Shown one piece after another: positions 1-33,938 of a stretch of 33,938 nt of DNA. Within the stretch, counting starts at the first letter, position 1. Each line of letters opens with the position of its first letter. The position numbers and the translations under genes are program-made. The notes under the pieces were generated by a model. It was not told the origin of the DNA, did no database searches, and saw only the letters and a program-made list of their open reading frames with translations. Source of the stretch: a virus; the IMG/VR virus record IMGVR_UViG_3300022752_000008, positions 1 to 33,938 of that record; one strand, 5' to 3'.

Positions 1-127
1 ACACATTGCCCTGTGGACAACTGCAAAGTGCCTGCAGATTGAGCAAAATTGCTGTAGTTATCCACAAAAAAGTTAACATAATGAACATCGTGTTAAACCG
101 ATTATGTAAGGCTCATGTAAGAAAGCA
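1..127. repeat. Terminal direct repeat, left copy (circular contig overlap)
   Basis: These 127 bases are identical to 33812-33938. The length matches the largest k-mer used by common short-read assemblers, so the simplest reading is that the contig is a closed circle of 33,811 bp printed with its overlap. A headful-packaging phage, as the Sf6-like TerS implies, gives exactly this result. A true 127-bp terminal repeat is less likely, because the sequence lies in the gap between terS and terL. Confidence 0.93.
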
Positions 128-261
128 TATAAATCAATGACTTACAGATGCATCGGCCTGTGGATAACTTTGACGCTGGCCGCGGCTGGCGCGGCGGCGC
201 TGACCCCCCCCTTGCTCGCGGCGGCGGGGGCGGCTGTAGCTGCACCTAAACACATATCGCC
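1..261. promoter_or_regulatory. terS-terL intergenic region: candidate origin with clustered DnaA boxes
   Basis: No convincing gene lies here. It holds a perfect DnaA box TTATCCACA at 58-66 (+), a perfect inverted box TGTGGATAA at 159-167, and a one-mismatch box TGTGGACAA at 12-20. A further perfect box sits at 33785-33793, 19 bp before the junction. Between the two inverted boxes lies an AT-rich stretch (about 66-140) with inverted repeats ACATAAT/ATTATGT (76-82, 101-107) and GTTAACA/TGTTAAA (72-78, 91-97), and two direct ATGTAAG copies (104-110, 115-121). Bases 175-240 switch to very GC-rich sequence with C8 and G5 runs that could pair. This resembles a DnaA-dependent origin with an unwinding element; a pac site could also lie here. 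Confidence 0.55.
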
Positions 262-1743
262 ATGAGCAACCCTAACCCCACCCCCCTGCCCCCCACTGCG
301 AAAAAGCCTGTGCCGAAAAAAAATTCTGAGGATTTGGTGGCGAATAACCCATTTGTCGAATTCGTCAAACTCTACAAAAATAACCCTGTGCTCTTTGTCA
401 AGGAGGTGTTGAACACCAACCCTGATCCTTGGCAAGTGGAGTTCTTGAACCACATCGCCGCCGGCAACCGCCGCATCTCAGTACGCAGCGGCCATGGCGT
501 AGGCAAATCAACGGCGTCGGCTTGGGCGATGATTTGGTACTTGTTTCTGCGTTTTCCTGTCAAGGTGGTGGTCACAGCGCCGACCAGCAGCCAGCTCTAT
601 GACGCCTTATTTGCGGAGGTCAAGCGTTGGGTTAAGGTGCTGCCGCCAATGCTGTTTGACCAGTTGGAGGTAAAGCAAGACCGCATCGAGGTGAAAGACG
701 CCAACGAAGAGGCGTTTATCTCGGCTAGGACAAGCCGCGCCGAGCAGCCCGAGGCGCTTCAAGGCGTCCACAGCGACAACGTGATGCTGGTGGCTGACGA
801 GGCGTCTGGTGTGCCTGAGAAAGTGTTTGAGGCCGCATCAGGTTCTATGTCTGGTCACAACGCCGTGACGTTGTTGCTGGGCAACCCTGTACGCTCCAGC
901 GGTTTCTTCTATGACACCCATAATCGATTGGCGGGTGACTGGGTGACCATGCGCGTGTCTTGCTCTGACTCACCGCGGGTATCTGAGGCTTACATTGAGG
1001 AAATGAAAGCGCGGTACGGCGAGGAGTCCAACGCCTACCGCATCCGCGTCTTGGGCGAATTCCCAAGGAGTGATGAAGATACTGTGATCCCCATGGAGTT
1101 ACTGGACTTGGCAATGAATCGGGACGTTGAGGCGAGTCCTTATGCGCCACTGGTATGGGGATTGGACGTTGCGCGGTTTGGATCTGACCGATCTGCACTG
1201 TGCAAGAGGCGAGGTAACGCTGTGACTGAGCCTATCAAGACTTGGAAGAATCTCGACCTGATGCAGTTGACTGGTGCGGTGGTGGCTGAATTTGAGGCGT
1301 TGGCTCCAAGCGACAGGCCAGAGGAGATACTGGTTGACTCCATTGGATTGGGCGCTGGCGTGGTGGATCGGTTGAAAGAATTGAATCTTCCAGCTCGCGG
1401 CATCAACGTGTCAGAGTCACCGGCCATGGGCGGTACTTACAGGAATCTGAAAGCCGAGCTTTGGTACAAGGCCAAGGCGTGGCTTGAGCAGCGGGACTGT
1501 AAGTTGCCCAAAGATGAGCTGCTGGTGGCTGAATTGGCGACTGTGAGATATATGTTTACAAGCAACGGCAAGATTCAGATTGAGAGCAAGGATGACATCA
1601 AGAAGCGTGGATTGGCGTCACCTGATAAGGCTGATGCGTTTTGCTTGACATTCGCATCAGATGCGGTAATTGGCATGATGGGGTCAAAGTCAAGTGCCAA
1701 ATGGAATCAGCCGTTGAAAAGAAACCTCTCAAGGGTTGCATAA
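262..1743 (+). CDS. terL: Terminase large subunit (ATPase and nuclease)
   Basis: Packaging motor that pumps DNA through the portal into the prohead and cuts the concatemer. The ATPase half shows Walker A SGHGVGKST (residues 76-84), Walker B VMLVADEA (174-181, with D179 and E180) and a coupling-motif-like GNP (207-209). The RNase H-like nuclease half has GLDVARFGSD (D302), ILVDSIGLG (D359) and SPDKADAF (D455/D458), the expected three acidic positions. At 493 aa it has normal TerL length. The ATG at 262 has no clear Shine-Dalgarno sequence but no better start exists. terS lies upstream across the contig junction, after a gap of about 264 bp carrying DnaA boxes. The function is secure; the subfamily is not assigned. 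Confidence 0.95.
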   Translation: MSNPNPTPLPPTAKKPVPKKNSEDLVANNPFVEFVKLYKNNPVLFVKEVLNTNPDPWQVEFLNHIAAGNRRISVRSGHGVGKSTASAWAMIWYLFLRFPVKVVVTAPTSSQLYDALFAEVKRWVKVLPPMLFDQLEVKQDRIEVKDANEEAFISARTSRAEQPEALQGVHSDNVMLVADEASGVPEKVFEAASGSMSGHNAVTLLLGNPVRSSGFFYDTHNRLAGDWVTMRVSCSDSPRVSEAYIEEMKARYGEESNAYRIRVLGEFPRSDEDTVIPMELLDLAMNRDVEASPYAPLVWGLDVARFGSDRSALCKRRGNAVTEPIKTWKNLDLMQLTGAVVAEFEALAPSDRPEEILVDSIGLGAGVVDRLKELNLPARGINVSESPAMGGTYRNLKAELWYKAKAWLEQRDCKLPKDELLVAELATVRYMFTSNGKIQIESKDDIKKRGLASPDKADAFCLTFASDAVIGMMGSKSSAKWNQPLKRNLSRVA

Positions 1744-2609: not shown

Positions 2610-3304
2610 TCTCACCGATTTGCATCAGCACAGTACACGGCAAAGGTTTGCGGGTGATGCTCACAAGCATTGCCGAGTACTGTCCCGAAGTGCCTGTCTA
2701 TTTGCGAGGTCCAGAGTCCATTATTGGCGGCTATGACGCTGATCTGAAGATCTTTGGTGCTCCGCACAATTTTGGTGATGACTACAACGATGTTATTGAC
2801 AAGGCATTTGCCGATGGCTTTGACTCTGTTGTTTGCGCCAATGATGACATTGTCTTGACCCCCACCAGCTACAGGTATCTGATGGAGGATGTATCTCAAT
2901 TGATACACGAAACTGGCGAGCCAGTGGGTTGGGTGGCTGCGCGTTGCGATGCCGCAAGGCCAGTACAGAACATTCGCAGCAATCCATTTAATCAAGATTT
3001 GTATTATTTCAAATATCCATACGAGGATTCCATCATGCCGATGGAATGTCCAAGCCCGATATTTGCTTGGATTGGCAAAGATGCGTGGGAAGTGCAGAAG
3101 TTCCCGCCACTTAATTGGTACTCGGATGATGTGCATTGCGAAGACTTGCGTGCGGCGGGTTTCCACCATTACTTGTCGCGGTCTTATGTCCACCACATTG
3201 GCAGCCAGACTATTGGCATGGACGGCAACAAGTTGATCCAGCAGTCAGTGCCATGGATTAGAAAGAATAGACCAAAATACGCATCCGACTGGTTTAGTTC
3301 TTAA
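2606..3304 (+). CDS. Glycosyltransferase-like protein (GT-A/GT2 type)
   Basis: A 232-aa protein with a GT-A-like plan. It has an N-terminal beta strand (ICISTVHGKG), an acidic NDDI at residues 79-82 in the place of the metal-binding DxD, then SPIFAWIG, and near the end YSDDVHCEDLRAAGF with a final HHIGS, typical of GT2 acceptor-side and metal-binding histidines. Substrate and sugar are not predictable. The GTG start at 2606 overlaps the previous stop. The position between terL and portal is unusual for a glycosyltransferase and suggests modification of virion protein or of the host surface. A second, unrelated glycosyltransferase-like gene lies at 8403. Confidence 0.7.
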   Translation: MISPICISTVHGKGLRVMLTSIAEYCPEVPVYLRGPESIIGGYDADLKIFGAPHNFGDDYNDVIDKAFADGFDSVVCANDDIVLTPTSYRYLMEDVSQLIHETGEPVGWVAARCDAARPVQNIRSNPFNQDLYYFKYPYEDSIMPMECPSPIFAWIGKDAWEVQKFPPLNWYSDDVHCEDLRAAGFHHYLSRSYVHHIGSQTIGMDGNKLIQQSVPWIRKNRPKYASDWFSS

Positions 3305-12519: not shown

Positions 12520-12733
12520 CCAGCAGCTCTTCAACCTGGTTATTGGTGTCGCTGGATTCTTGGCGGCATACGTCATTAACTCCATGACCCGCACAATACA
12601 AAAGCTGGAGGACAAGGTCAACGAATTACCTCACAGCTATGTGCAAAAGGATGACTACCGATCTGACATTGCTGAGATCAAGGCCATCTTGAAGCAGATC
12701 TTTGACAAACTAGACAGCAAGCAAGACAAATGA
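12512..12733 (+). CDS. Small membrane protein with coiled coil (73 aa)
   Basis: A 73-aa protein starting at GTG. One transmembrane helix (about 6-25, [19 protein letters not shown]) is followed by a charged helical segment (27-40) and a second helix (49-70, [16 protein letters not shown]), all predicted cytoplasmic or periplasmic coiled coil. It precedes two more single-span membrane proteins, a holin and an endolysin, so a role in lysis (antiholin, spanin-like or pinholin) is plausible. No lipobox is present. A GTG start follows from the position of the first hydrophobic helix. Confidence 0.7.
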
Positions 12734-16783: not shown

Positions 16784-17977
16784 ATGGCATACGAAGATTT
16801 TTTAGCGAGTCAGAGGTGGACTAATTTGCCACCGCCAAATATTGGCCCTTTGCCGCCAAAAAGTGTTGGTCTTTTATCGCCAGAAGTAAATCTCTATCAG
16901 CAGATCATGTCGCAGATGCAGCAAACTGAGCAAGCACCAAAAGGTTTGCTTGATGCTACTGGTGGTTATAACCCTGCAATTTATGATGTCACGCCAGAAC
17001 AGAATCAGGCAGTTACAAAATTAAATGAGGGATTAAGTAGATTTGGCGGTGGTGGTGGTAGTTCTAGTGTTGCTGCACAGCAAGCAGCCGCACAAGCGGC
17101 ATTGGCGCAGATGACTCCAGGTGAGCAAGCTGCACTTAATGCGATGGCTATTCCAAATTTGGTTAATTTAATGCTTCCATTCCCTGTAAAAGTATTGATG
17201 AATGTGATGGGTATCGATGCGCCTGGTACTACCTCAAGCGGCGGCGTCAGCTCCACCAGCGGAAGTCCAATGGCTGGCATTGCCAGCAAGGGTAATGTTG
17301 GGCAAGTTGCCAACGCCACCACAACTGCTGGTCTTGCTATTGGCAATGCTATTGGCGCTGGTGTTGGCGGTATTGGTACATCGCCTGGCACTACCGGCGG
17401 TGGGTTGGCAGGCATGGGAAGTGGCGCAGCAGGAGTTGCCGCCACAGCAGCCGCCACAGGTAGTGGTATGGGTGGCATTGGAGGTGGTGGCTCAAGTGGT
17501 GGCAGCGGCGGTGGTGTCGGTGGTGCATCAGGTATGGGCGGCATGGGTACAGGAGCAGCAGGCGCAGCCGCATCAGCAGCTGCTGGAGGCGGCAGTAGCG
17601 GCGGCAGTAGCGGTGGCGGTGGAGGCGGTGGTGGAGGCGGCGGTGGTTGTTGCTTCATCATGCTGGAAGCTCGCTATGGTGACGGCACTATGGATGCTGT
17701 TGTTCGCAGATACCGCGATGAGAAGATCACCAACCACAACAAGCGTGGCTACTACAAGTTGGCTGAAGTCTTTGTGCCACTTATGCGCCAATCCAAGCTA
17801 TTCAAATTCATGGTGGCTAAGACATTTGCTGATCCTCTTGTCTCTTACGGCAAGTGGCACTATGGGCAAAATAAGCATGGCTGGATATTCAAGCCAATTG
17901 AGAAATTTTGGATGAAAGTTTTCAATGTGTTGGGAAGCGACACAAAATTTATTCGTGAAAACGGCGAAACAATTTAA
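16784..17977 (+). CDS. Virion protein with Gly-rich linker and C-terminal CFI-type domain
   Basis: A 397-aa protein in three parts. Residues 1-90 are Pro/Gln-rich; about 90-150 are helical, ending in a hydrophobic stretch NLVNLMLPFPVKVLMNVMG. A low-complexity Gly/Ala/Ser linker covers about 150-288 and ends in a run of Gly. The C-terminal 109 residues start CCFIMLEARYGDGTMDAVVR (289-308) followed by RYRDEKI and RGYYKLAEVFVPLMRQS. This resembles the CFIATAAYGS-type domain of unknown function found after flexible linkers in bacterial and phage proteins. It could be an internal or tail-tip protein. Role unknown; the position is just before the ejection genes. Confidence 0.7.
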   Translation: MAYEDFLASQRWTNLPPPNIGPLPPKSVGLLSPEVNLYQQIMSQMQQTEQAPKGLLDATGGYNPAIYDVTPEQNQAVTKLNEGLSRFGGGGGSSSVAAQQAAAQAALAQMTPGEQAALNAMAIPNLVNLMLPFPVKVLMNVMGIDAPGTTSSGGVSSTSGSPMAGIASKGNVGQVANATTTAGLAIGNAIGAGVGGIGTSPGTTGGGLAGMGSGAAGVAATAAATGSGMGGIGGGGSSGGSGGGVGGASGMGGMGTGAAGAAASAAAGGGSSGGSSGGGGGGGGGGGGCCFIMLEARYGDGTMDAVVRRYRDEKITNHNKRGYYKLAEVFVPLMRQSKLFKFMVAKTFADPLVSYGKWHYGQNKHGWIFKPIEKFWMKVFNVLGSDTKFIRENGETI

Positions 17978-27377: not shown

Positions 27378-27511
27378 GATGACCACCATGCGGCGAGTAA
27401 GAGGGCAAAGCCAACGCCGATAGCGATGGCCACAAGGAAGTCAAGGGCAGAGTCAGCGCGGCGCTCTAAGCGCCTTGCTTGCTCCATGTAGGGGTGTTGG
27501 GTGTGGTTCAT
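27374..27511 (-). CDS. Micro membrane protein, first gene of the minus-strand operon (45 aa)
   Basis: A 45-aa ORF: MNHTQHPYMEQARRLERRAD, then SALDFLVAIAIGVGFALLLA and AWWSS. Basic soluble N-terminus and one C-terminal transmembrane helix (22-42). AAAGGAG lies 8 nt upstream, an excellent site, and the promoter-operator follows. Its stop overlaps the next start (ATGA). Confidence 0.7.
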   Translation of the reverse strand: MNHTQHPYMEQARRLERRADSALDFLVAIAIGVGFALLLAAWWSS

Positions 27512-27542
27512 TTCAAAGTCTCCTTTAATTGATGACAGAATA

Positions 27543-27571
27543 ATCATATCACTTTTGATATTGCTATCAAA
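27543..27571 (-). promoter_or_regulatory. Promoter-operator of the minus-strand micro-gene operon
   Basis: Minus strand: -35 TTGATA (27570-27565), 16-nt spacer, -10 TATGAT (27548-27543). A perfect 18-bp dyad TTTGATA-TTGC-TATCAAA (27554-27571) covers the -35 element, so a bound protein would block RNA polymerase. The Cro-like protein encoded at 27719 or the operon's own wHTH are possible ligands. Confidence 0.7.
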
Positions 27572-27615
27572 TACCTTTCAATTTACTCAACTATTATTCC
27601 TGTAAACTTAGCATT

Positions 27616-27672
27616 GGCGGTTTTACTGCCAGTTGCCTTTGGGGGGTCAGCGTGAGTTGATCCCCTTTTTTT
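27616..27672 (+). terminator. Tandem hairpins with U tract (attenuator or small-RNA end)
   Basis: First hairpin GGCGGT-TTT-ACTGCC (27616-27630, one G-U pair). Second: GGGGGTCA (27642-27649) pairing with TGATCCCC (27658-27665), one G-U pair, 8-nt loop, then seven T (27666-27672). This is a good intrinsic terminator for + strand RNA, but there is no + strand gene upstream before the convergent terminator at 25938. It may end a short RNA or protect the replication operon from read-through. Confidence 0.7.
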
Positions 27673-27681
27673 ATCTTAAAC

Positions 27682-27711
27682 TTGACCATCTCCACAATTT
27701 ATGGTTAACAT
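27682..27711 (+). promoter_or_regulatory. Candidate promoter of the replication operon
   Basis: -35 TTGACC (27682-27687), 18-nt spacer, -10 TAACAT (27706-27711, 4 of 6). The start codon at 27719 lies 7 nt after the -10, so the transcript would be leaderless or nearly so. The -35 and spacer length match the promoter at 24201-24230. Confidence 0.5.
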
Positions 27712-27718
27712 ACTCCAC

Positions 27719-27958
27719 ATGAAAACGATTTCACAAGAAGCACTTCACGCCATACGGCACAAAGTCGAATGCGCTGGCTACAAGATGTCTGATGTCTGCC
27801 GCGTTGCGGAGATTGATCAGGCGCAGGTATCCCGCTGGATGTCGGGGACCACAGAGCCATTGTATGGATCAGTAATGCGCTTGGATCAGGCTGCCGATGC
27901 GCTGGTATCAGCTCGCCTCACAGTCCTTAACAAAGCCATGGAGGATGCCGTCAAATGA
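27719..27958 (+). CDS. Cro-like helix-turn-helix regulator (79 aa)
   Basis: A 79-aa protein. YKMSDVCRVAEIDQAQVSRW (21-40) is a clear helix-turn-helix with Q-A-Q-V-S-R-W as recognition helix; then MSGTTEPLYGSVMRLDQAAD. Small single-domain Cro/CI-like repressor. The ATG at 27719 is preferred to the one at 27701, which overlaps the candidate -10. It heads the replication operon (4-bp overlap with the resolvase gene). It is the best candidate to bind the dyad at 27554-27571. Confidence 0.8.
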   Translation: MKTISQEALHAIRHKVECAGYKMSDVCRVAEIDQAQVSRWMSGTTEPLYGSVMRLDQAADALVSARLTVLNKAMEDAVK

Positions 27959-30444: not shown

Positions 30445-32487
30445 ATGCAAGCAGAACAAATAGCCAAAACGCTCGGCAACGCGAAAAGAGCAAATGGTCA
30501 GTGGGTAGCATCATGCCCAGTACCGAGTCACGGCAAAGGCAACGGCGACAAGAATCCAAGTCTCAGCATCCACATCGGAGATGACGGCAAACCCTTATTT
30601 CATTGCCACGGCGGGTGCTCTCAGGAAGAGGTATTCAACACCATCAAGGATAGAAACTTGCTTCCCGAGCTGGAAGAGCGACCCGACCCTCTCGCCAACA
30701 TCAAGCCATTACCCAAAGTCGAGTTTCAGCAAGAGTGGCAGTACCAAGACGAAGACCGCGTCACAGTTTTCGTCAAGCACCGGCTGCGCGTAGGGGAAAC
30801 CGGCAAAACCTATCGGCTCTACAAAGTAGATACAGATGGAAAACGCTACCCAACACTTGGCGATGCACGAATAGTCCCCTACAAGTTACCCGAATTGCTG
30901 GACGCGAAGACCGCGGGAAGAATCATCTATCTCGCTGAGGGCGAAAAGGCGGTGGACGCCTTAATGAGTCTTGGCGTGGTGGCCACAACAGCACACAGTG
31001 GCGCAGGGCATTGGCCAGACGCCATCACCGAATACTTTGCTGGCGCCAATGTGGTGATCCTGCCTGACAACGATCTGAGTGGCTGGAGTTACGCTCGCAA
31101 GGCAGCAGAAGCCATCCTGCCCATCGCCAAGGCGCTCAAGGTAGTTGACCTCGGCCTGCAGGGGCAAGGCGATGACGCCTATGAGTTCATTGAGGCAGGC
31201 GGCGGCAGAGCAGAGCTGGCAGCGTTGGTCAAGGCAGCGCCAAAAATCAATAGTGTTGACGATGTAACGATGCCCGAAAGACTTCAGGCGATTCAACCGA
31301 ATGCGGCAATTGATGTGCCGCCACCACAAGTAGAGGACATCGCCAAAGAATTTGCGCCAGACCCACCAAAAGAAGCACCAAAGCCAACCAAGACCATAAA
31401 GATTGAATCTTGGGACACCATTCAGGATGAGCCAGTCGAGTGGCTGATTGAGGGTGTCATCCCCAAAGGATCATTCACGGCGTTGTATGGACCGCCTGGG
31501 AGCTTCAAGAGCTTCATAGCCCTAGACATTGCCGAGGCCATCGCCACAGGGCGCACATGGATGGGCAGGGAGGTTAAGCAGACTGGTGCAGTGCTGTACT
31601 TGGCCGGCGAGGGATTTGGCGGTATTGGAGCCAGGATCAAAGCCTGCAAGCTTTACCACCAGACTCAAGACGGCGCACCGATCTACATCGTCAGACACCA
31701 GCTCAACCTCAGATCAAGTGCTGAGGACTTCAACGCCTTAATGCTGGCAGTCGTACAGCTGGTGGAGCAGACAGGCTTGGAGTTCAGCTTAGCCATCGTG
31801 GATACCTTAGCTAGAGCTTTCGGCGGCGGCAACGAGAATAGCTCAGAAGACATGGGTGCATTCATCACTGCCATGGGAAAGGTCCAAGAATTCCTCAACT
31901 GCGCCTTGATGGTGCTGCATCACAGCGGCAAGGACGCCGCCAAAGGACTGCGCGGTCATTCATCACTGCTTGGCGCAGTGGATACAGAGCTGGAATTACT
32001 CAGGTTTGACGAGCAAATGAAAGGCGTGCTCACCATCAGTAAGCAAAAGGATGGCGCAGATAACGAGCGATTTGGCTTTGAGATGGTGGAGGTTGAGATT
32101 AGGCCAGCAGGACTCGGACTGAGCGAGCCAGTCGTTAGCTTGGCAGTTCAAGCCAGCGACTCAGCCGTCAACGAAATACCCAAAAAGGCAGGCAAGAGCA
32201 ACGCGGGGAGTGGCAAGAATCAGCGACTGGCGATGCAATGTCTAGAGCGAATGGTCAAAGAGCATGGAGCGCCAAAGTACATCGATGGTTTACAACGTCA
32301 TGCCATCAGATTGGAGCAGTGGAGGCAGGAATTGTGGTCCAAGATGGGGTGTACTGATGAGGATAAAAGCTCATTCAAGATGGCGTGGAAGCGTGCCAAG
32401 GACGACTTGCAGAAGTCAGGCGAGGGCGATATTAGGGACGATTATGTGTGGTTGCAGCACAAACCGATGGGATTTGAAGCTGTATGA
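30445..32487 (+). CDS. Fused primase-helicase (zinc finger, TOPRIM, RepA-like AAA)
   Basis: A 680-aa replication enzyme. A zinc ribbon has C24 (VASCPVPSHGKG), H29, C54 and C58 (LFHCHGGCSQ). TOPRIM primase: IIYLAEGEKAVDALMSLGVV (E165) and VVILPDNDLSGW (D208, D210). The RepA/AAA_25 helicase part has Walker A GPPGSFKS (349-356), LYLAGEG, Walker B SLAIVDTLARAFGGG (D453), LMVLHHSGKDA and LLGAVDTELEL. The C-terminal 100 residues are basic and helical. It primes and unwinds the replication fork; no phage DNA polymerase was found, so it must work with the host replisome. The start has no clear Shine-Dalgarno sequence. Confidence 0.93.
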   Translation: MQAEQIAKTLGNAKRANGQWVASCPVPSHGKGNGDKNPSLSIHIGDDGKPLFHCHGGCSQEEVFNTIKDRNLLPELEERPDPLANIKPLPKVEFQQEWQYQDEDRVTVFVKHRLRVGETGKTYRLYKVDTDGKRYPTLGDARIVPYKLPELLDAKTAGRIIYLAEGEKAVDALMSLGVVATTAHSGAGHWPDAITEYFAGANVVILPDNDLSGWSYARKAAEAILPIAKALKVVDLGLQGQGDDAYEFIEAGGGRAELAALVKAAPKINSVDDVTMPERLQAIQPNAAIDVPPPQVEDIAKEFAPDPPKEAPKPTKTIKIESWDTIQDEPVEWLIEGVIPKGSFTALYGPPGSFKSFIALDIAEAIATGRTWMGREVKQTGAVLYLAGEGFGGIGARIKACKLYHQTQDGAPIYIVRHQLNLRSSAEDFNALMLAVVQLVEQTGLEFSLAIVDTLARAFGGGNENSSEDMGAFITAMGKVQEFLNCALMVLHHSGKDAAKGLRGHSSLLGAVDTELELLRFDEQMKGVLTISKQKDGADNERFGFEMVEVEIRPAGLGLSEPVVSLAVQASDSAVNEIPKKAGKSNAGSGKNQRLAMQCLERMVKEHGAPKYIDGLQRHAIRLEQWRQELWSKMGCTDEDKSSFKMAWKRAKDDLQKSGEGDIRDDYVWLQHKPMGFEAV

Positions 32488-32492
32488 ATAAA

Positions 32493-32606
32493 CAGGTAAC
32501 AAGTAACAAACAGGTAACAAACGTAACTTGTTTGTTCCGTACAGGTAACAAGTAACAAACCGAGAGTCTAGAACTCGGAGGTTTGTTACCACTGTATGTT
32601 ACCAAG
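32493..32606. repeat. Iteron-like GTAACA repeat cluster (second origin candidate)
   Basis: Two perfect 19-bp copies of CAGGTAACAAGTAACAAAC (32493-32511 and 32542-32560, 49 bp apart). A shorter copy CAGGTAACAAACGTAAC starts at 32511. GTTTGTTACC (32581-32590) is an exact inverse of GGTAACAAAC (32513-32522), and another GTTACC occurs at 32598-32603. A hairpin CCGAG/CTCGG (32560-32564, 32574-32578) lies between. All of it lies in the 144-bp gap after the primase-helicase gene. Such repeats next to a RepA-like helicase resemble replication iterons; a regulator binding site is the alternative. Confidence 0.75.
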
Positions 32607-32631
32607 TTGCACCAAAACAGGGAGAAACGAA

Positions 32632-33312
32632 ATGGCGACAAAAAGAACATCGAATAAGCATCCAGTGGTGGAGCAACCAAGTCCAAAGGCAGACGCTTGG
32701 ACGATTCATGTGCAATCGAAACTGGTGGAGTTGGAGTCGGTAAAGGTTGCCAGCGATAGGAAATGGGGAGAAAACCGACTGAATACTTTGGTAAGCAGTG
32801 AGCTGAGAGAGAAATTTTGGATTCAGAACAGCAGACTGCATCAGGCGATGGAGTCCAAAGATCAGGCGAAGTTCGATTCCAGCGTGGCGGGAATGATCAG
32901 GGCGTATGGCGTGCTGGATCAATGGGCAACCGAAGAGGGGTTAGAGCCAGCATCAGCCATTCCTCGGATTGAGTGGGAAATGCAAAATGGTCAGACCATG
33001 GTCATCGTCAGAACAGTCAATGAAGCAGTTGCAATTCAGACTCAGCGTCAGGACCTATCGAATCACCACATCTGGTCAATGCAGGAGATCGAGGTACTGA
33101 TGGCCGATGAGGGAGTTCAACAGATGATTAAGCTCAAAGCTCTTGTGCCAACAGCTCAATTGACAAAGTTCAAAAAGATAGGTGGCGAAACAGGCTTTGA
33201 TGACTTTGAAAACGATCTGACATTCAGCGACAATGACACCATGGAATACAAATTCAATTCCGAACAGGCAGAAAGGTTCAAGAATGGACAAAATCAACGA
33301 GATCATGGGTAA
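32632..33312 (+). CDS. Unknown protein between replication and packaging genes (226 aa)
   Basis: A 226-aa protein with no recognised family. Residues 1-25 are basic and disordered. 26-115 are helical (WTIHVQSKLVELESVKVASD, ENRLNTLVSSELREKFWI, GMIRAYGVLDQWATEEGLEP). 120-200 are mixed (RIEWEMQNGQTMVIVRTVNE, HHIWSMQEIEVLMADEGVQQ), with an acidic end. The ATG at 32632 is preferred over 32596 because GGGAG lies 7 nt upstream and the earlier start falls in the repeat cluster. It overlaps the micro-gene at 33284 by 29 bp. May link replication to packaging; inferred from position only. Confidence 0.75.
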   Translation: MATKRTSNKHPVVEQPSPKADAWTIHVQSKLVELESVKVASDRKWGENRLNTLVSSELREKFWIQNSRLHQAMESKDQAKFDSSVAGMIRAYGVLDQWATEEGLEPASAIPRIEWEMQNGQTMVIVRTVNEAVAIQTQRQDLSNHHIWSMQEIEVLMADEGVQQMIKLKALVPTAQLTKFKKIGGETGFDDFENDLTFSDNDTMEYKFNSEQAERFKNGQNQRDHG

Positions 33313-33376: not shown

Positions 33377-33808
33377 ATGCCAGGCACGCCAAAGCGCAGA
33401 AAAGATGTCGCTTTTCTCAATGAGATGCCAGAAGAGATGATCTTCAGCATGGTTGAAAGCGGTAAAAGCATTGCCGACATTTGCATCAGCTTGGGTATCA
33501 GCAAGCGTGCGCTAGATGATTGGATCGAGGAAAACGATCACGGTGCTATGATTACGCGCGCGCGCACGCGTGCTGCCGACCTGATGGCTTGTGACACTAT
33601 CAAGATCGCCGACAGCATGGCCGACAGCAATCCGCAGCGCGATGTCCAGCGCATCCGCACGCGCCAGTGGCTGGCCGAAAGGTGGGATCAGAAAACTTAT
33701 GGTCTACAAAAGGCGCAACAAATCAACATCAATGTGCAGGACTTACGCATGGCGGCGCTGCGCCATGTCGAGGTGATCGATGACTTATCCACAGAAAAAA
33801 GCCAATGA
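33377..33808 (+). CDS. terS: Terminase small subunit (Sf6/P22-like)
   Basis: A 143-aa protein resembling Sf6 gp1. The N-terminal helix-turn-helix has EEMIFSMVESGKSIADICIS (19-38), LGISKRALDDWIEEN, then RARTRAADLM. The middle DTIKIADSMADSNPQRDVQR and the C-terminal RTRQWLAERWDQKTYGLQKA (95-114) match the Sf6 oligomerisation part (R-x-R-Q-W-L-A-x-R-W-x-x-K-x-Y-G). It recognises pac on the concatemer and starts headful packaging with TerL. AGGAGG stands 9 nt before the ATG (33362-33367). A perfect DnaA box TTATCCACA (33785-33793) lies inside its last codons. terL follows after the contig junction. Confidence 0.9.
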   Translation: MPGTPKRRKDVAFLNEMPEEMIFSMVESGKSIADICISLGISKRALDDWIEENDHGAMITRARTRAADLMACDTIKIADSMADSNPQRDVQRIRTRQWLAERWDQKTYGLQKAQQININVQDLRMAALRHVEVIDDLSTEKSQ

Positions 33809-33811
33809 TGC

Positions 33812-33938
33812 ACACATTGCCCTGTGGACAACTGCAAAGTGCCTGCAGATTGAGCAAAATTGCTGTAGTTATCCACAAAAAAGTTAACATAATGAACATC
33901 GTGTTAAACCGATTATGTAAGGCTCATGTAAGAAAGCA
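33812..33938. repeat. Terminal direct repeat, right copy
   Basis: Exact copy of bases 1-127. Joining the ends puts terS (ending at 33808) about 260 bp upstream of terL (starting at 262), which is the usual gene order. This supports a circular or circularly permuted molecule. Confidence 0.93.

Follow-up and report, generated by a model that had tools for sequence, protein, structure and literature searches.

Organization of the locus

The window, by which is meant the whole stretch of 33,938 nucleotides of viral DNA analysed here, is a closed circle; its first and last 127 bases are identical, and removal of this overlap gives 33,811 bp. Three perfect DnaA boxes, all TTATCCACA, and one TTGTCCACA are found on this circle within a span of 194 bp, which begins in the 3′-terminal part of terS and ends 95 bp short of terL; their strand order is + − + −. 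The initial annotation had described three perfect boxes and one variant here, and its coordinates are all exact on the closed circle. A further perfect match at 33869 is the site at 58 counted again, because the ends of the window overlap by 127 bp. The genes and sites are as follows:

30445..32487, + strand: RepA-like primase-helicase (AAA_25), the constant neighbour of the array
32596..33312 (start probably 32632), + strand: gene of unknown family between the primase-helicase and the array, kept in groups A and D
33377..33808, + strand: terS, Sf6-like terminase small subunit, an exchangeable neighbour
33785..33793, + strand: DnaA box 1, TTATCCACA, within the 3′-end of terS
12..20, − strand: DnaA box 2, TTGTCCACA, duplicated in the end overlap at 33823–33831; TTATCCACA or TTATGCACA in relatives
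55..144, no strand: AT-rich segment of low stability, candidate DNA-unwinding element (from stability ranking)
58..66, + strand: DnaA box 3, TTATCCACA, recurring at 33869–33877 in the end overlap
73..97, no strand: invariant 25-bp block TTAACATAATGAACATCGTGTTAAA, with the inverted repeat TTAACA..TGTTAA inside
132..144, + strand: IHF consensus AATCAATGACTTA (WATCAANNNNTTR), the sole + strand copy in the circle
159..167, − strand: DnaA box 4, TTATCCACA on that strand
262..1743, + strand: terL, terminase large subunit, an exchangeable neighbour

A search of the whole window reveals no perfect DnaA box outside the array, and the looser motif TTWTNCACA, a genome-wide count of which had been proposed in the initial annotation, is found beyond it only at 12640 and 24105. 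By chance 0.28 perfect boxes are expected in the window; the observed count was reached in 0/100 shuffles, and two or more perfect boxes inside 194 bp occurred in 0/300 simulated genomes, so that the cluster is beyond chance, as had been claimed. Calculated at 10.5 bp per turn, boxes on the same strand are separated by whole turns of the helix (boxes 1–3, 84 bp or 8.0 turns; boxes 2–4, 147 bp or 14.0 turns).

Boxes 3 and 4 (58–66 and 159–167) are indeed oriented towards each other, with AT-rich DNA between them; among the non-overlapping 90-bp stretches of the circle, that starting at position 55 is the fourth least stable. A low-stability segment adjoining the boxes, a feature expected of an origin, is thus present. 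An unwinding segment which flanks the boxes is usual in bacteria but not found in all plasmid origins. In the array the boxes stand on both sides of the AT-rich stretch, an arrangement which by analogy resembles two-cluster or plasmid origins, whereas in bacterial origins this stretch is described as flanking the box cluster (PMC4285127).

The phage had been described as possessing a primase-helicase and no DNA polymerase, in agreement with which the RepA-like AAA_25 gene is present and no polymerase gene was recognised among the ORFs scanned in the window. Nor was an initiator gene recognised among these ORFs, or a dnaA gene in the phage. The product of 32596–33312 exhibits no Pfam match above the cut-off and no PDB relative, and its only relatives are uncharacterised phage proteins; its predicted structure is a model of moderate quality with no informative match. 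As a guess, it could possibly be an accessory initiation protein which aids loading or reads the 25-bp block.

Conservation of the sites

At least three boxes (with at most one mismatch) are found at the equivalent position in 69/69 TerL relatives from IMG/VR whose upstream sequence extends for at least 300 bp, a count made among kin and hence not one of independent samples. Lack of conservation in close relatives had been named as grounds for rejecting the origin; the boxes are conserved. Beyond the array hardly any perfect box occurs, either in these 69 loci or in longer records of the family searched whole. The codons TTA-TCC-ACA, which form box 1 within terS, are invariant in 46/46 non-redundant lineages while the adjoining codons vary, and in the 33 four-box lineages all substitutions (29/29) fall at box positions 1, 3 and 5. 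In E. coli the consensus is TTWTNCACA, in which position 5 is free; TTGTCCACA is the strong DnaA box in Mycobacterium and Streptomyces (PMC5043019, PMC4285127).

One clade carries 11 bp extra between boxes 1 and 2, approximately one helical turn, with phase preserved. In oriC a whole-turn change in box spacing is tolerated and a partial turn is not (PMC4285127). Helical phasing of the boxes, an expected feature of DnaA origins, is accordingly present both in the 84- and 147-bp spacings and in this insertion. In L051 a box at a shifted position stands in for box 4, and in L051 and the L063 group boxes have been lost and then regained nearby; they therefore evolve as binding sites do. Together the data support conservation of the boxes as real binding sites, predicted to be those of host DnaA.

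At a fixed offset, 33/46 relatives have a perfect IHF consensus, and the 25-bp block likewise keeps a fixed offset across relatives. A scan of IMG/VR for this block returned 99 stretches, and DnaA boxes adjoin it in 80/80 of those that were readable. The block is a candidate unwinding site or a candidate site for a phage protein.

Linkage to the replication module

The genes with which the array is inherited were examined in 60 contigs obtained by a primase-helicase profile search, each with at least 1.6 kb downstream of that gene. All 60 possess a cluster of three or more boxes 1.15–1.54 kb downstream of the primase-helicase gene, although they span three different terminase types, in one of which the cassette is inverted. 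By comparison, in a control set of 80 contigs fetched by related TerL the cluster is found in only four and beside terL in none; terS was found in three of these four, and there the cluster lies approximately 1 kb upstream of it. This difference indicates that the array belongs to the replication module. The rule of linkage covers relatives whose primase-helicase is at least 51% identical, since all those tested were 51% identical or closer; being related, these contigs are not independent samples.

Group D (L236, L237, L243, L250 and L268) carries the block, the boxes and the IHF site next to a very different terminase, the IHF consensus lying 10–11 bp, or one helical turn, farther from the 25-bp block. 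Where these contigs reach, identity to the window is 51–52% for the primase-helicase, 68% for RuvC and 52–53% for the exonuclease, and further genes of the replication module are shared. The primase-helicase of L440 is 88% identical to that of the window, versus 31% for TerL and 23% for TerS; the cassette is retained with its orientation reversed relative to the genes. L440 is a natural recombinant. The cassette of L429 is inverted as well. The gene downstream of the array is terL in group A, another terS in group D and another terL in L440.

Judged from sequence, then, the cassette is co-inherited with the replication genes and not with the packaging genes that flank the array. Exchange of the terminases does not separate it from the replication genes, whichever way round it lies, and in this it behaves as an origin would. 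The initial annotation had placed the origin inside the packaging operon; the position between terS and terL is correct but incidental, the constant neighbour being the replication module. In the Manatee Spring phage MW202879 (locus L195; TerL 67%), two perfect boxes are found at 3059 and 3179, 120 bp apart; they sit just downstream of repA, which matches the expectation that boxes follow the replication gene.

Other regions of the window

The initial annotation had proposed looking for a minimum of cumulative GC skew near 0–200. In 6/6 genomes the detrended minimum lies instead 2.0–3.1 kb upstream of box 1, with no change of sign there, and GC skew does not pinpoint the array. An AT-rich gap of 311 bp (27390–27700) separates leftward from rightward genes beside a small ORF (27701–27958), which is helix-turn-helix-like by eye. 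It is probably an early control region, and this intergenic sequence at 27.4–27.7 kb is the main alternative place for an origin. Long glycine-rich simple repeats at 17400–17650 are coding and lie within ORF 16784–17977.

Just before terL is a conserved GC-rich block (200–246; CCCCCCC..GGCGGGGGCGG..GCACC), which resembles the annotated right end of the direct terminal repeat (357 bp) in Sinorhizobium phage phiM5 (..GGGGGCAGCGCATATATC followed by TGCACC). The contigs of several relatives begin at 218–289, that of L009 with CTGCACC. It is possible that a terminal repeat encloses the DnaA array; alternatively, strain variation at 218–289 could be the cause of these contig starts. A hairpin considered in the GC-rich block was rejected, its stability being no greater than that of shuffles.

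Occurrence in other phages

The cassette, which is small, conserved and similar in appearance to a bacterial replication origin, occurs in a family of uncultured water-borne phages. A BLAST search with the cassette against phages and plasmids gave no match, and cultured phages whose terminases are related (phiM5, Pelagibacter HTVC027P and HTVC023P, Streptomyces FlowerPower and Manuel, and others) showed no array in the parts read. A search for relatives in bacterial genomes that might point to the host found no close one. Few papers in the literature searched name DnaA boxes together with phage genomes; in a Pseudomonas phage such boxes were predicted by software only (PMC11512268).

Scanning for three spaced DnaA boxes reveals dense arrays in further uncultured phages (L089, L102, L129, L149, L176, L111, L138, L091 and others), some with more than 20 boxes, often 11 bp apart. 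Where a box in these phages has a single mismatch, it is mostly at position 3 or 5, and several of these arrays adjoin terminase genes of different families. The presence of dense DnaA arrays in several unrelated groups suggests that a strategy of replicating from a host-DnaA origin, if real, arose more than once.

Interpretation of the array

Its position between terS and terL, the GC-rich block and the clustering of contig starts near terL are the reasons why the array was seriously weighed as a packaging start site, at which the repeats would bind TerS, IHF would act as in lambda cosB and the likeness to DnaA boxes would be coincidental. The resemblance of the block at 200–246 to the phiM5 repeat end, and the arrays of unrelated phages, which likewise lie near terminase genes, are in keeping with such a site. 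A pac or cos site, however, is expected to be co-inherited with its own terminase, whereas this array persists when TerS and TerL are swapped for others, is mostly absent from TerL relatives and is absent from phiM5; moreover, other groups that retain the array lack the GC-rich block. The packaging reading was dropped on the grounds that terminase exchange left the array in place, and is now barely credible. That the array serves the terminase and late genes as a promoter or operator responsive to DnaA we regard as very unlikely. DnaA is known to regulate transcription, and in the window the array is directly upstream of terL, but a scan of the array region for sigma-70 promoters and terminators found nothing (no sigma-70-like promoter in 1–600), the downstream gene varies among group A, group D and L440, and the cassette is reversed in L440 and L429.

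The array has the same types of parts, boxes and an IHF consensus, as datA and DARS2, and might by this token be an element which gathers host DnaA and either titrates it or alters its nucleotide state, such that host initiation is blocked or tuned. A datA or DARS element would be expected to stimulate ATP hydrolysis or nucleotide exchange on DnaA. Such a DnaA-control element requires neither the strict linkage to the primase-helicase across terminase exchanges nor an AT-rich segment containing an invariant block of 25 bp, which makes it an unlikely explanation. Co-inheritance with the primase-helicase across terminase exchange fits an origin and not a packaging element or a terminase promoter.

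We therefore favour, with a probability of about 0.78, the reading that the region from approximately 33785 round to 167 is the replication origin of the phage and uses host DnaA and IHF together with the phage primase-helicase. This reading rests on the observed sites, which are conserved, helically phased and linked to the replication genes. The distance of the skew minimum from the array, the AT-rich stretch lying inside the array and the second AT-rich region at 27.4–27.7 kb speak against it. A host-DnaA-dependent origin had been proposed in the initial annotation, and conservation of the boxes, the IHF consensus with the AT-rich segment and co-inheritance with the primase-helicase lend it support. 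Occupancy by DnaA and IHF, melting, helicase loading and the start of synthesis are steps which we infer. Host DnaA would bind the boxes of the array and IHF would introduce a bend between the last box and the AT-rich stretch, whereupon the DnaA complex would open the latter (approximately 55–144, including the 25-bp block). The phage primase-helicase, whose gene ends approximately 1.3 kb upstream, would enter the opened DNA, and host polymerase would copy the phage genome; the latter is proposed because no polymerase was recognised in the phage.

We lean slightly towards the broader proposal that, in widespread aquatic tailed phages without their own initiator, a host-DnaA/IHF origin cassette and a RepA-like primase-helicase travel together, with exchange of the terminases that surround the cassette. 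If true, replication of these phages would depend directly on the state of host DnaA, tying infection to the host's own initiation control without a phage initiator. It would also provide a clear hypothesis for how replication starts in phages without a polymerase, and a sequence signature for locating origins in uncultured phage genomes.

Comparison with known systems

Many of the well-studied phages encode an initiator themselves, such as the O and P proteins of lambda. Lambda uses these proteins instead of DnaA (PMC5043065); its ori is, like the array, a phage origin linked to replication genes, and differs in depending on O and P where the array would depend on DnaA. At the datA locus DnaA boxes are clustered together with a binding site for IHF; DARS2 depends on IHF and Fis in the vicinity of its three core boxes (PMC4245941). 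Both share DnaA boxes and an IHF site with the array; unlike it, they are chromosomal control sites, neither origins nor linked to a helicase-primase.

In the iteron plasmid origins of pSC101 and R6K gamma, DnaA boxes and a DNA-bending protein, IHF or another, act together at the AT-rich site that opens (PMC5043065). With these and P1 oriR the array has in common DnaA boxes and a site for a bending protein at an AT-rich segment. They require, however, a plasmid Rep protein on iterons, whereas the array has a single 25-bp block and no repeat series, and no Rep match was found among the scanned ORFs. DnaA-dependent origins occur on chromosomes and plasmids, and P1 oriR is one in which DnaA boxes are combined with Rep iterons. 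Unlike bacterial oriC of the E. coli type, the array has only four strong boxes, has its AT-rich stretch between them, and resides in a phage that has a primase-helicase of its own and no recognised dnaA gene; it shares with oriC TTATCCACA boxes in both orientations, an IHF consensus, an AT-rich segment and helically phased spacing in which a change of one turn is tolerated.
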